A DNA stretch of 64,000 bases. It comes from Flavobacterium ammonificans (GTDB lineage: Bacteria; Bacteroidota; Bacteroidia; Flavobacteriales; Flavobacteriaceae). The notes under the pieces are model-generated. The model did no database searches. It saw only the letters and a program-made list of their open reading frames with translations, and was not told where the DNA came from. Both the position numbers and the translations under genes were made by a program. Below, one piece after another: positions 31,342 to 36,705 of the stretch (position 1 is its first letter; every line of letters starts with the position of its first letter). The DNA lies in NCBI RefSeq assembly GCF_020886115.1, contig NZ_AP025185.1, positions 1,984,001 through 2,048,000 of the forward strand, read 5' to 3'.

Positions 31342-31366
31342 TTTTCTCCAAAAATTATAAAAAAAA

Positions 31367-31682
31367 GCAGACCTATAAGCCGGATTCTGTCTCCGTAAAC
31401 GGAGCCTTATCATTTATCTAGATCTTACATTACTGTAAGACTCAAGCTATCTACCCTTCAACAACGGACGAGAAGCCCTTAAATGCTGATATACTTGATA
31501 TTTCACCGCATAGAGTTTACCTGGTTTCACTACAGCATTACCTGTACATACTTTCTGTTGCACTTGTCCTAATTCATCTCGAAAAATCGAGACAAACCGA
31601 CGGGTGTTACCCGCTATGCTTCTCTGTGGTGTCCGGACTTTCCTCCCTCCTAATGAATCAGGACGGCGATAAGGCGGTCTGC
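31367..31682 (-). ncRNA. rnpB: RNase P RNA, bacterial type A
   Basis: Catalytic RNA of RNase P, which matures tRNA 5' ends. On the minus strand the conserved core is readable: GAGGAAAGTCCGGACACCAC near the 5' end (P4/CR-I), AGGGTAAC-type internal loops, and the universal 3' end ACAGAATCCGGCTTATAGG. The ends pair as helix P1: GCAGACC (31682-31676) with GGTCTGC (31373-31367), followed by a T-run at 31366-31359 that acts as a terminator. A TAAATTTG box at 31694-31687 sets the 5' end. An 80-codon ORF across this region is a shadow and should not be annotated. Confidence 0.95.
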
Positions 31683-31686
31683 GGGG

Positions 31687-31861: not shown

Positions 31862-32947
31862 ATGGAACAATTTATAGTATCGGCGCGTAAATACCGTCCA
31901 CAAACATTTAAAGATGTTGTGGGTCAGAAAGCCATTACCAATACTTTGTTGAATGCCATTGAAAACAATCACTTGGCCTCTGCCCTTTTATTTACTGGAC
32001 CTCGTGGTGTAGGTAAAACTACTTGTGCACGTATTTTGGCACGAAAAATCAATCAACCAGGTTACGACGATCCAAATGAAGATTTTGCTTTCAACGTCTT
32101 TGAATTGGATGCAGCTTCTAATAACTCAGTAGACGATATTCGAAACTTGATTGATCAAGTACGTATCCCACCTCAAACCGGACAGTACAAAGTGTATATC
32201 ATTGATGAGGTGCATATGTTATCTTCTGCCGCTTTTAATGCGTTTTTGAAAACTTTAGAAGAACCACCAAAACACGCCATATTTATTTTGGCTACGACCG
32301 AAAAACACAAAATCATTCCAACGATTTTATCACGTTGTCAAATATTTGATTTCAAAAGAATTACCGTTAAAGATGCTAAAGAACACTTAGCAGAGGTTGC
32401 TACAAGTCAAGGAGTTCAATTTGAAGACGACGCTTTGCATATCATTGCTCAAAAGGCAGATGGTGCTATGCGTGACGCTTTGTCTATTTTTGACCGAGTA
32501 GTTTCTTTTTGCGGTACTAATTTGACTCGTCAAGCGGTAACAGAGAATTTGAATGTTTTAGATTACGAAACGTATATCAATGTAACCGAATTGATTTTGG
32601 AAAACAAAATTCCAGAATTATTAGTTGCTTTTAACGAAATTCTTGCCAAAGGATTTGATGCCCATCATTTTGTTGCTGGATTGGCTTCTCATTTCAGAGA
32701 CTTATTGGTTTCTAAAAATCCTGCTACTTTATCTTTGTTAGAAGTTGGAGAACAAGCACAGCAAATGTATGGTGTTCAAGCACAAAAATGCGACACCAAT
32801 TTCTTGTTGAAAGGAATTGAAATTGCGAATGATTGTGATTTGAAATACAAAGTCAGTCAAAATCAACGATTACTTGTTGAACTTTGCTTAATGCAATTAG
32901 CCTCCATCACTTTCGATGGAGAAAAAAAAAAGTTGAGCAATTTATAA
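31862..32947 (+). CDS. dnaX: DNA polymerase III gamma/tau, zero-frame short (gamma-like) product
   Basis: Clamp-loader ATPase of the replisome. The start is ATG 31862 (MEQFIVSARKYRPQTFKDVVG), set by the promoter. In zero frame the protein has 361 residues covering AAA+ domains I-III. Walker A GPRGVGKTTCARILA, Walker B VYIIDEVHMLSS, sensor ATTEKHKIIPTILSRCQ and the zinc-module region (partly degenerate) are present. Zero-frame reading stops five codons after a run of ten A at 32922-32931 (TAA at 32945-32947). The tau-specific C-terminus continues in the -1 frame to 33615. A -1 shift at A AAA AAG joins both into about 584 residues. See the companion entry and findings. Confidence 0.9.
   Translation: MEQFIVSARKYRPQTFKDVVGQKAITNTLLNAIENNHLASALLFTGPRGVGKTTCARILARKINQPGYDDPNEDFAFNVFELDAASNNSVDDIRNLIDQVRIPPQTGQYKVYIIDEVHMLSSAAFNAFLKTLEEPPKHAIFILATTEKHKIIPTILSRCQIFDFKRITVKDAKEHLAEVATSQGVQFEDDALHIIAQKADGAMRDALSIFDRVVSFCGTNLTRQAVTENLNVLDYETYINVTELILENKIPELLVAFNEILAKGFDAHHFVAGLASHFRDLLVSKNPATLSLLEVGEQAQQMYGVQAQKCDTNFLLKGIEIANDCDLKYKVSQNQRLLVELCLMQLASITFDGEKKKLSNL
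32902..32932 (+). promoter_or_regulatory. Slippery A10 site with upstream hairpin in dnaX
   Basis: CTCCATC (32902-32908) and GATGGAG (32915-32921) form a perfect 7-bp hairpin with a 6-base loop, directly followed by A10 and G. The run contains the heptamer A AAA AAG (32926-32932) in the correct phase for a -1 shift. Hairpin plus A-run can also stimulate RNA polymerase slippage; transcripts with 11 A would fuse the two frames. Confidence 0.65.
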
Positions 32948-33615
32948 TTCCGCCCACATATTTTAAAAATTCAGACTATTCTATAGTTGAAGTAGTTAAA
33001 AATACTGAAACTCCTAAAGAAACTGAAGTAACGCCAGCTACTCCTTCATCAGAAAGTATAGAAGAAATTCCAAATGAAGTTGAAGAAATAGTTACAACAG
33101 TAACTGCCCCTATTATTGAAATTCCAAAACCTACTATTCCAAACGAATCAGAACCTAAAGTTTCTGCGCTCTCTTTATCAAGTATTCGCGCTAAAAAAGC
33201 TTTAGAAGAAAGTTCAAAAACGTTTGTAAAAGAAACCGTTCATTTACCCACAGAGCCATTTACTGAAACAGAAATGTTGTTGCAATGGAATAAATATGCG
33301 CAACGTTTGGGAGACAAAGGCTATAAAATTATGGAGTCATTATTACTTATTAATGATCCTGTTTTGAATGGTACTCACATCACGATTGAATTACCTAACG
33401 AGGGTTCCAAATTGGATTTTGAAAGTGAAAAATTAGGATTATTAGGATACTTAAAAGGGCATTTACACAATCATGACATTACAATTGAAGTCATTGTCAA
33501 TGAAAGTTTTGAAAGTAAACGCAGTTTTAATGACCAAGATCGCTATAACCGTTTGCATCAAATTAATCCGAATATTGAATTATTAAAAACAACATTCGGA
33601 TTAGATATTACTTAA
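32929..33615 (+). CDS. dnaX: DNA polymerase III tau C-terminal part, -1 frame
   Basis: Continuation of dnaX reached only by a -1 shift (or one extra A) at the A10 run, about 228 residues. After a Pro/Glu/Thr-rich linker (VEEIVTTVTAPIIEIPKPTI) it has a folded C-terminal domain (FTETEMLLQWNKYAQRLGDK through the end LLKTTFGLDIT), which in flavobacterial tau follows the AAA+ core in one frame. The intact reading of this domain over about 690 bp shows it is under selection and expressed. Its start codons in the -1 frame are upstream overlaps, not real starts. Confidence 0.85.
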   Translation, partial: KVEQFIIPPTYFKNSDYSIVEVVKNTETPKETEVTPATPSSESIEEIPNEVEEIVTTVTAPIIEIPKPTIPNESEPKVSALSLSSIRAKKALEESSKTFVKETVHLPTEPFTETEMLLQWNKYAQRLGDKGYKIMESLLLINDPVLNGTHITIELPNEGSKLDFESEKLGLLGYLKGHLHNHDITIEVIVNESFESKRSFNDQDRYNRLHQINPNIELLKTTFGLDIT

Positions 33616-33623
33616 GTGATTAT

Positions 33624-34514
33624 TTAGATTTTGCCGTAGTACATGGCTTTAACAATTCCGTCTGCTAACCCAATCTTAGGAACGTAGATATTTCTAGCTC
33701 CACTCCATTTCATTGCATTCAAATAAATTCGTGTAGCAGGAATAATTACATCGGCACGATCAGAGTTCAATCCTAATTCAGAAATTCGTTGCTCATAAGT
33801 TAATGAATTCAAAAAGGCATATTGAGAATTCATATAAATATAAGATAGCGGTTTATCTTGTGATTTCGCCGACATTTTAAACAACTTGTTGATATTCCCA
33901 CCAGAACCAATTAAAGTTACTTCATCATATTCTTCAGTATTAGTTCGAATCCATTTCTCGATTTCCTCCCAAACCACTTCATGAACCATATCATTTAATA
34001 GTCGAACTGTTCCTGCTTTAAAAGATCTAGAAACAATCATCTTTCCATCAGAAAACAAAGTAAACTCGGTGCTACCACCACCTACATCAACAAAAAGATA
34101 GGTCTTTTCAGTTTTAATTAAGCTATGTAAATCGCTTGAAGCAATTATAGCTGCTTCTTTTTTACCATCAATAATTTCAATCTTTATTCCGGTTTTCTTT
34201 TTTATGATTTCAGTTACTTCTTTACCATTATATGCCTCACGCATTGCTGAAGTTGCAAAAGCTTTGTATTGCTCAACTTTATGAACTTTCATCAATAGAC
34301 TAAATGCTTTCATCGCATCACACATTCTGTCAATATTTTCTTCAGAAATGGCTCCAACAGTAAATGCATCTTGTCCCAAACGAATTGGCACACGAACTAA
34401 GGAACTTTTGTTGAATTGCGTTTCTTTGTCATCTTGTTCAACAATATTAGCAATAAGCAATCGCATGGCATTAGATCCAATATCGATTGCAGCGTATTTT
34501 TTTATATTTAGCAT
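33624..34514 (-). CDS. ppx: Exopolyphosphatase / guanosine pentaphosphatase family
   Basis: Ppx/GppA phosphatase of 296 residues, hydrolysing polyphosphate ends or pppGpp. The actin-like ASKHA fold shows the phosphate-1 motif YAAIDIGSNAMRLLIANI, the catalytic region FATSAMREAYNG and the phosphate-2 motif FVDVGGGSTEFTLF, with TLIGSGGNINKLF later. At 296 residues it is the short two-domain form, lacking the C-terminal helical extension of E. coli Ppx (513). It is the last gene of a sixA-ppk-ppx operon, 43 bp after ppk. Confidence 0.9.
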   Translation of the reverse strand: MLNIKKYAAIDIGSNAMRLLIANIVEQDDKETQFNKSSLVRVPIRLGQDAFTVGAISEENIDRMCDAMKAFSLLMKVHKVEQYKAFATSAMREAYNGKEVTEIIKKKTGIKIEIIDGKKEAAIIASSDLHSLIKTEKTYLFVDVGGGSTEFTLFSDGKMIVSRSFKAGTVRLLNDMVHEVVWEEIEKWIRTNTEEYDEVTLIGSGGNINKLFKMSAKSQDKPLSYIYMNSQYAFLNSLTYEQRISELGLNSDRADVIIPATRIYLNAMKWSGARNIYVPKIGLADGIVKAMYYGKI

Positions 34515-34557: not shown

Positions 34558-36705
34558 CTAGTTTATTTCACCACCTTCTAATTGGTTCTTATAATAATTA
34601 TACGTCTCTAATTGAGCTCTAAAAATAGGTTTGTTGCCTCTTTGTCGGTATTTGTTATCTAAAAGATGTGAATGCAATCTAGCTTTTACATTACCCTGCC
34701 AACCTAAGTCAAAATTATCAATTAACTCTCTTTTAATATCTTCATCATAAATAGGACAAGTTACTTCTACACGTCCATCTAAATTACGAGTCATCATATC
34801 AGCTGAGGAAATAAACACCTCAGGATCCCCTGCATTACCAAATATATAAATACGAGAATGTTCTAAATAATTATCTACGATACTTATAGCTTCTATATTC
34901 TCGCTTAAGCCAGGTATTCCGGGAATTAAAGAGCAAATACCTCTAACTTCTAATTTAATATTTACACCTGCATTACTTGCTTCGTATAATTTATCAATCA
35001 TTTCAATGTCAGATAAACTGTTCATTTTCAACTTCATGTAAGTTGTATTACCTTCTTTTGCATGAGCAATCTCTCTGTTTATAAGCTTATTAAACTTATT
35101 TCTAGTGAAATGAGGTGAAGTAATAATATGCTGGTAATTGTAAATGCGATAGTTGATTTCAAAAAATTCAAAAACTTTAGATACATCTTTAAGTATTTTT
35201 TGATGTGCTGTAAATAAAGTAACATCGGTATATACTTTTGCGGTAGATTCATTAAAGTTTCCTGTCGAAATTATACCGTATCGGTGAATTTTAGATCCTT
35301 CCAATCTTTCGATAACACATATTTTACTGTGTACTTTTAATCCTTTTACACCAAAAATAAGTTCAATTCCCTCCATCTGCATTTGTTCAGAATAAAAAAT
35401 ATTACTGGCTTCGTCAAATCGCGCTTGCAATTCAATTTGGACAGTTACTTTTTTTCCATTTTTAGCAGCGTTAATTAATGAACTGATAATTTGAGAGTTT
35501 TTTGCTAATCGGTATAACGTAATTTTAATTGTAGTTACTGCAGGATCCAATGCTGCTTCTCTTAAAAACTTAATCACATACGAATACGATTGATAAGGAG
35601 CACTAACCATATAATCCTTAACCGCAATTTTCTTCATTATATTTTCATCCAAACTCAATCCTGGTATAGGTAAAGGCGGATTTGTTTTGTATAATAAATC
35701 AAACCTCCCAAGGTTTGGAAAATCCATATAATCCCTTCTGTTATGGTATTTACCACCAGGAATGATACTATCAGTAGCATCAATTTTCATATTCGTCAGG
35801 AAGAAATCAAGTGTGTCTTTATCAATATTCTGATCGTAAATAAAACGAACCGGCTCTCCAATCCTTCTGTCTTTTACACTTGATGCTATTTTTTCCAACA
35901 TACTTTTACTCAAGTCACTGTCAATATCCAACTGAGCATCTCTTGTAATTTTAATCATATGGGCATCAACGCTTTCATAATCAAAAATATCAAAGATTTT
36001 GTTTAAATTTAAACGGATAACATCATCAAGCATAATCACGAATTGTTTTTCACCTTCAGGAGGTAAAACCACAAAACGATTGATTGTTTTTGGAATTTCG
36101 ATTACTGCATAAAGGACTTCTTTCTTACTTTTTTTATTGGTTTCTTTAGCATTTCTTTTCAATAATGAACGAAAATTAAAAGAACGCTCTTCAATTTCTT
36201 TTGAAAATCCGTTAATTACTAATTTGACTGCCAAATAGCCCGAAGTATCCTTTAATACCGGAAAATGATCTAAATCATTTAAGATAATGGTAACTAACTC
36301 AGGACTTACTTTTTGTACAAAAAAATCTTTTAAGTACAATTCTTGATCTGGAGTTACATCATTTTCATCAATAGTAAATATATTTTCTTTCTCTAAGCGA
36401 GCTTCAATATCACTTAATATGGCTAAGCTTTCCGCTTGTTGATCAATTACGATTTCTGTTATATCATGCAATAACTGACTTGATGAAATTCCGTTAAAGT
36501 ATTTCTCACCAGAAATTCCATTTAAAGTTAACCTGCGAATTGCAGCAAAACGAACTCTAAAAAACTCATCTAAGTTATTGGAGAAAATTCCAAGAAAACG
36601 CATTCTGTCTAATAATGGAACCGTTACGTCACCCGCTTCTTGTAAAACACGGGCATTAAAGGCTAACCAACTTTTTTCTCTATCAATATATCTTTGTTGC
36701 AACAC
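34558..36705 (-). CDS. ppk: Polyphosphate kinase 1
   Basis: Reversibly polymerises the ATP gamma-phosphate into inorganic polyphosphate. The 715 residues show N-terminal domain QQRYIDREKSWLAFNARVLQ, the head domain and two phospholipase-D-like domains. The autophosphorylated histidine is in LKVHSKICVIERLEGSKI with STGNFNESTAKVYTD after it, and the second PLD segment is IYIFGNAGDPEVFISSADMM. It sits between sixA (4 bp upstream) and ppx, so synthesis and degradation of polyphosphate are transcribed together. Confidence 0.95.
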   Translation of the reverse strand: MLQQRYIDREKSWLAFNARVLQEAGDVTVPLLDRMRFLGIFSNNLDEFFRVRFAAIRRLTLNGISGEKYFNGISSSQLLHDITEIVIDQQAESLAILSDIEARLEKENIFTIDENDVTPDQELYLKDFFVQKVSPELVTIILNDLDHFPVLKDTSGYLAVKLVINGFSKEIEERSFNFRSLLKRNAKETNKKSKKEVLYAVIEIPKTINRFVVLPPEGEKQFVIMLDDVIRLNLNKIFDIFDYESVDAHMIKITRDAQLDIDSDLSKSMLEKIASSVKDRRIGEPVRFIYDQNIDKDTLDFFLTNMKIDATDSIIPGGKYHNRRDYMDFPNLGRFDLLYKTNPPLPIPGLSLDENIMKKIAVKDYMVSAPYQSYSYVIKFLREAALDPAVTTIKITLYRLAKNSQIISSLINAAKNGKKVTVQIELQARFDEASNIFYSEQMQMEGIELIFGVKGLKVHSKICVIERLEGSKIHRYGIISTGNFNESTAKVYTDVTLFTAHQKILKDVSKVFEFFEINYRIYNYQHIITSPHFTRNKFNKLINREIAHAKEGNTTYMKLKMNSLSDIEMIDKLYEASNAGVNIKLEVRGICSLIPGIPGLSENIEAISIVDNYLEHSRIYIFGNAGDPEVFISSADMMTRNLDGRVEVTCPIYDEDIKRELIDNFDLGWQGNVKARLHSHLLDNKYRQRGNKPIFRAQLETYNYYKNQLEGGEIN

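Follow-up and report, generated by a model that had tools for sequence, protein, structure and literature searches.

Two reading frames of dnaX in Flavobacterium ammonificans and its relatives: a conserved A-run, an abutting hairpin and probable transcriptional slippage

The dnaX locus and its surroundings

In this study, a stretch of 64 kb (64,000 nucleotides, hereafter the window) from Flavobacterium ammonificans was analysed; the genome around it is complete, lies on one contig and amounts to 2.41 Mb. The zero frame of the dnaX locus opens with ATG and encodes a gamma-like protein in which the Pfam domains DNA_pol3_delta2 (5e-35) and DNAX_ATPase_lid (4e-13) were both detected above their cut-offs, together with domain III as DNA_pol3_gamma3 (8e-5), slightly below its cut-off, and among the PDB entries the E. 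coli gamma/tau chains were matched at about 2e-58. These matches, as well as the place of the stop, bear out the preliminary description, which had called the gene dnaX with a gamma-like zero-frame product. The same description had located tau in the -1 frame, and this agrees with what we observed: the tail stays open in that frame up to its stop, shares 72% identity with the C-terminal parts of 129 relatives, and shows tau-frame substitutions of 3390, 2420 and 7846 at the first, second and third codon positions, respectively. The identity and the third-position excess indicate that the tau tail is a real coding frame; no Pfam match to it was obtained up to an E-value of 0.1. By arithmetic, the fusion formed after one added A measures 584 aa.

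The anatomy of the joint was likewise found as previously outlined, with ten A's touching a 7-bp hairpin, the zero-frame stop shortly behind them and the tail in the -1 frame (Table 1). The last six A's of the run and the following G (32932) make up the heptamer A AAA AAG in zero-frame phase. Upstream, dnaX is adjoined by a divergent RNase P class A RNA gene, and two minus-strand genes converge on its 3' end, the nearer of which we take to encode a Ppx/GppA-like phosphatase and the farther a polyphosphate-kinase-like protein.

Table 1. Positions of the dnaX features and neighbouring genes within the window
Feature	Position	Strand	Basis or remark
RNase P class A RNA gene	31360-31685	-	Rfam RF00010, 192.6 bits
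dnaX locus (gamma and tau parts)	31862-33615	+	Open reading frames read from sequence
dnaX zero frame, gamma-like product, 361 aa	31862-32947	+	AAA+ ATPase, lid, domain III
Hairpin CTCCATC-ACTTTC-GATGGAG, 3' arm abutting the A-run	32902-32921	+	Folding, codon bias, compensatory pairs; arms 32902-32908 and 32915-32921
A10, putative slippage run	32922-32931	+	Read from sequence; A9-A11 in relatives
tau-specific tail, -1 frame, 227 residues past the run	32932-33615	+	
TGA, third-frame stop	32934-32936	+	Sequence; predicted to terminate translation of transcripts with 9 or 12 A's
TAA, zero-frame (gamma) stop	32945-32947	+	Sequence; overlaps the tau-frame ATA-ATT codons
Minus-strand gene, convergent	33624-34514	-	
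Minus-strand gene, convergent	34558-36705	-	

Conservation of the A-run, the stops and the frame phase

A total of 346 dnaX loci were read at the DNA level from four sources, with some genomes present in more than one: relatives of the genus and order (114 of 120 genomes matched, 90 loci read), named records (80 loci read), one genome per genus of the family (116 of 120 matched, F. ammonificans itself included, with 109 of the 115 other-genus matches read), and a phylum sample (146 of 148 matched), from which 67 new loci were read in regions of which 40 had been hand-picked for family spread. Within 400 nt beyond the N-terminal match, the longest stretch of A's was taken as the run. Counts were made on the usable loci (n = 329, or 314 after removal of 15 with duplicate joints), on Flavobacterium-like loci (at least 85% identity, n = 132), on loci of at least 70% identity (n = 252) and on the one-per-genus sample (n = 108); kinship inflates all locus counts and is taken into account only in the one-per-genus sample and by parsimony.

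An A-run of at least eight, located either in the linker or where the N-terminal part ends, was observed in 332 of the 346 loci. The distant lineages carry the run elsewhere in the linker, and their counts rest on its presence and not on homology with the Flavobacterium run. The 14 loci lacking such a run comprise 13 of distant lineages and one of the family sample (L276); with these set aside, along with two whose contigs were too short (L049 and L090) and one whose tail was not open (L185), the 329 usable loci were divided into A10 (275), A11 (31), A9 (21), A12 (1) and A8 (1). Some of these loci are worth describing singly. In L276, dnaX is split at -1, with GGAAAAGTAAGG close to the joint, and another shift mechanism may be in use there. 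L280 has A8 only, yet a perfect 7-bp hairpin of different sequence abuts it. L185, a Flavobacterium davisii record, has A9 at the site, and its longest frame past the run closes after 76 codons, while L154 (Flavobacterium sp. YO12) has A9 at the same dnaX site; in both the A9 is either a length variant or a homopolymer sequencing error. Again, among ten distant members of the phylum (L340-L349), nine display A9-A10, L346 being without a run, and in seven the zero frame stops soon past it; as judged by eye, the surroundings are rich in G+C, so that ten A's are conspicuous.

The run at dnaX is the only A10 or T10 of the window, for which shuffled sequences average 12.8, and in the whole genome there are 15 distinct runs of ten or more, where an order-2 model based on the window predicts about 263; runs of such length are thus avoided. 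Another coding A10 gene of the same genome (L365) found no match in the remaining 39 of 40 genomes, and the rest of dnaX therefore served as an internal control. Across the 252 genes of the 70% set, this control amounts to 439 kb with 803 other Lys-Lys pairs and contains no A-run longer than eight, whereas the site itself carries A9-A11 in all 252 dereplicated loci, exactly A10 in 226 of them.

In 92% of 314 loci, stops close both frames other than that of tau within six codons, whereas synonymous shuffling of the tail codons leads one to expect 16%; when the two frames are considered separately in the one-per-genus sample, stops occur in 93% and 97% of loci, compared with expectations of 36% and 55%. 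In the window the two stops are the TGA and TAA of Table 1. A gain or loss of A's in transcripts would lead into both of these frames, but a -1 ribosomal shift never reaches the third one, and the conserved third-frame stop thus argues for slippage.

The phase of tau relative to the zero frame was -1, 0 and +1 in 192, 131 and 6 of the 329 usable loci, respectively. Flavobacterium-like loci are mostly split at -1 (123 of 132), with eight in a single frame and one at +1; of these nine outside phase -1, seven have A10, one A11 and one A9. The eight single-frame members are made up of the seven with A10, which by eye show a small neighbouring length difference, and L051 with A11. In the one-per-genus sample, on the other hand, 89 of 108 are single-frame (A10 in 78, A11 in 9, A9 in 2) and 19 are split. 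Relatives with a single frame and no homopolymer would, according to the preliminary description, have spoken against it; the outcome is mixed, as single-frame relatives are common but the family sample keeps the homopolymer. By parsimony on single-gene FastTree trees, from which only rough numbers are obtained, the 252 loci require at least 24 phase changes, compared with 84 when labels are shuffled, and at least 22 changes of run length, about equal to the phase changes, while five phase changes suffice on a tree built from the 132 Flavobacterium-like loci alone. The exact run length is therefore not frozen, though confined to 9-11 in the 252-locus set. A single-frame dnaX with A10 yields tau when decoded in the standard way and would yield gamma upon slippage; a split dnaX has the reverse arrangement. 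The form that slippage would produce has changed over between lineages many times, and the polarity flips. The opposite polarity to E. coli that had been noted for the window holds good, as tau lies in the -1 frame here.

The hairpin 5' of the run

Folding of the 30 nt before the run gave -9.8 kcal/mol in the window (z -3.73), and none of 200 shuffles was as good. In the Flavobacterium-like loci the median energy of this stretch was -8.4, whereas synonymous shuffles averaged -3.6; a hairpin at p <= 0.05 is present in 92% of these 132 loci, and in 128 of the 132 the 3' arm abuts the run. A stem-loop directly 5' of the motif at the same threshold is seen in 67 of the 108 one-per-genus loci and hardly outside the family, namely in 3 of the 34 loci at 55-70% identity and in none of the 28 below 55%, these 62 loci including seven from the family sample. 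Taken together, the 34 loci at 55-70% nevertheless tend in the same direction (Wilcoxon p 3e-4, with each locus treated as independent). A phylum-wide hairpin finds no support in these counts: the A-run occurs widely in the phylum, the hairpin mainly in Flavobacteriaceae. As many run-bearing loci lack it, the hairpin is not required wherever the run exists.

Codon choice also points to constraint on the hairpin. In the 120 codons leading up to the run, 90 columns were scored over 93 genera for deviation from the overall codon usage of this segment, 17 of the 110 genus representatives being omitted for identity under 70%, lack of a run or a run at another codon position. The first rank in codon bias fell to an unrelated Ser column (AGT), and ranks 2-6 were all taken by hairpin codons: Ile ATC, Ser TCT/TCC, Thr ACT, Gly GGA and Ala GCC. 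The preferred third base pairs in the case of Ile, Ser, Gly and Ala, whereas for Thr it falls in the loop. Asp GAT, which belongs to the stem, ranked 14, and the loop Phe codon, at rank 79, was unbiased. Moreover, over 109 distinct 22-mers, the eight pairs are standard in 71% of cells, compared with 48% and 40% when the partner is slid by one and two positions, and 622 paired cells were counted, while shuffling gave 555 on average and 578 at most. In some loci both arms have changed and still pair, as in CTCTGTC/GACGGAG and in CTCCATT/AATGGAG. The full stem of seven pairs is preserved in 188 of the 252 loci but, when each distinct 20-mer is counted once, in only 37 of 101.

The possibility that the hairpin is a Shine-Dalgarno (SD) sequence in disguise was rejected, because in the 49 genera whose 3' arm is not GGAG the fold is, collectively, still more stable than in synonymous shuffles (median z of -1.06; Wilcoxon p about 1e-6, with loci treated as independent), yet individually only 13 of the 49 reach p <= 0.05.

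Transcriptional slippage and the competing explanations

With reference to the literature, Antonov et al. 2013 (PMC3711429) described 17 two-ORF dnaX genes from 12 genera, nine of the 17 with A10, and predicted slippage in them. The dnaX of the window resembles these in having a -1 transition at a poly-A run in the DNA, such that tau needs recoding, and it clearly belongs to this two-ORF poly-A kind; the basic finding is consequently already in print, as a prediction. The dnaX section of that paper names three Chlorobi members and mentions neither a hairpin nor single-frame sister genera, and its main text does not contain "flavobacter", the A10 genes standing in supplementary figure S3. The literature covered (few subscription papers and no supplements) reported neither polarity flips nor a conserved 5'-abutting hairpin in dnaX of Bacteroidota. 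A ribosome-profiling paper on F. johnsoniae (PMC6847099) contains RNA-seq in three replicates, each of about 30 million 50-nt reads that stem for the most part from rRNA/tRNA, and its main text mentions no dnaX, slippage or frameshift.

Transcriptional slippage at A9 is known from dnaX of T. thermophilus (Larsen 2000, as cited in passages of PMC5009743, PMC1088944 and PMC3711429), which shares with our gene a late poly-A run, close stops in both other frames and, as predicted here, gamma and tau from one gene. The features of T. thermophilus-type slippage seen here are an A-run of at least nine late in dnaX, kept beyond codon choice, and nearby stops in both non-tau frames. Unlike the window, T. 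thermophilus makes tau as the unslipped product, a polarity found in the single-frame Flavobacteriaceae dnaX, and those passages do not mention an abutting hairpin. Such a hairpin is known from Roseiflexus IS630, where a stem-loop lies directly 5' of a 10-nt slippage motif (Penno 2015, as cited in PMC5009743); the likeness extends to a short perfect 5' stem-loop and, by prediction for dnaX, to frame fusion in part of the mRNAs. The Roseiflexus case differs, going by that account, in being a mobile element whose U5C5 motif shows no detectable slip without its context, whereas A10 should slip alone. The relevant sections of PMC5009743 give the RNA-DNA hybrid as 9-10 bp and report bacterial slippage in vivo on runs of nine A's or T's. 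Given this hybrid length and the Roseiflexus layout, an A10 directly behind a hairpin has the same geometry.

Since run and hairpin are kept across much of the family, programmed polymerase slippage appears the most likely explanation, and there is good reason to believe that dnaX yields its two clamp-loader proteins mainly in this way, after the manner of T. thermophilus. The remark in the preliminary description that slippage by RNA polymerase would agree with a hairpin next to an A-run gains support from the keeping of the run in any phase, the 5' hairpin and the stops in both frames. We infer that the polymerase would copy a dT10 template on which a full-length rA:dT hybrid lets RNA and template realign, giving transcripts with 9, 10, 11, 12 or more A's. 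Ten-A transcripts would be translated into gamma, eleven-A transcripts would bring the tail in frame and produce tau, and those with nine or twelve A's would end at the TGA and again produce a gamma-like protein. By analogy with the Roseiflexus IS element, the nascent hairpin probably stimulates slippage, forming in the RNA exit channel right behind the hybrid and raising its frequency. In most of the sampled sister genera the same signal would work with reversed polarity, unslipped mRNA giving tau and slipped mRNA gamma.

The main rival is -1 ribosomal frameshifting at A_AAA_AAG alone, in which the shift would produce tau and slippage of the polymerase would contribute nothing useful. E. coli dnaX carries an SD-like element about 10 nt 5' of its heptamer; the window has none at that distance, but GGAG stands 4 nt before the heptamer, which may be counted in favour of this rival. 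In E. coli, dnaX undergoes -1 programmed ribosomal frameshifting (PMC5009743, PMC3711429, in the passages on it), and the window shares the in-phase A AAA AAG and the predicted outcome of gamma and tau; it differs in its opposite polarity, its lack of a 3' stem-loop, the 5' hairpin in its place and the other spacing of GGAG. The E. coli-type shift that had been noted earlier therefore stands in one part only: the heptamer is present, and in phase in 127 of the 146 loci of the 70% set with phase -1 as well, but the 3' stem-loop is absent (z 0.28 in the window; median z of relatives -0.24 to 0.75, the latter against mononucleotide shuffles) and the run is kept in any phase. Single-frame relatives keep the run, yet have AAG in the same phase in 23 of 100, compared with AAT in 52 and AAC in 13, and the G past the run is usually also the first base of a tau-frame Val or Ala codon. 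The third-frame stop would be superfluous for a ribosomal shift. Bacteroidia ribosomes normally do not read SD sequences, failing on them except where the SD is very strong and the ribosomes lack bS21 (PMC9976891, in the part concerned), and upstream hairpins abutting a slip site attenuate -1 shifting according to passages in PMC6321510. Ribosomal frameshifting alone is thus rather improbable. Slightly less probable again is a combination in the Flavobacterium branch of polymerase slippage and -1 ribosomal shifts in comparable shares; run and heptamer do coexist, and PMC5009743, in its treatment of the matter, allows both processes at one site, but the parts that would specifically stimulate the ribosome are missing, and nothing speaks directly against it.

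A contingency locus, in which replication slippage varies the length of the run in the DNA and so switches tau on and off, is very improbable. A10 tracts are mutable, lengths of 9-11 occur and the tree holds the changes of length counted above, but the run is overwhelmingly exactly A10, most single-frame Flavobacterium-like loci included, and loss of tau is expected to harm replication. An error in sequencing or assembly, or a single-base mutation of recent origin, which the preliminary description had also considered, has next to no chance, for although homopolymers are error-prone and single records (L185, L154) carry A9, the same split recurs in 123 of 132 dereplicated Flavobacterium-like loci with the tail under coding selection, and error or pseudogene is ruled out for the group by these relatives.

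Returning to programmed transcriptional slippage, a further-reaching version of it is speculative and in our judgement rather unlikely: the nascent hairpin would drive dnaX slippage and set the gamma:tau ratio at transcription, with polarity flipping, and, as the hairpin forms only when no ribosome follows close behind the polymerase, the ratio could report the tightness of translation-transcription coupling and thereby connect growth state with the composition of the clamp loader. Sister lineages that run one signal with opposite polarity make the required gamma:tau ratio comparable, as a natural experiment. For users of genome data, it is worth bearing in mind that annotation may label Flavobacterium dnaX as truncated or split. 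If slippage at this run is true, stem-loop-stimulated polymerase slippage would no longer be confined to a mobile element but would also serve a replication gene on the chromosome, retained in a large part of the family.
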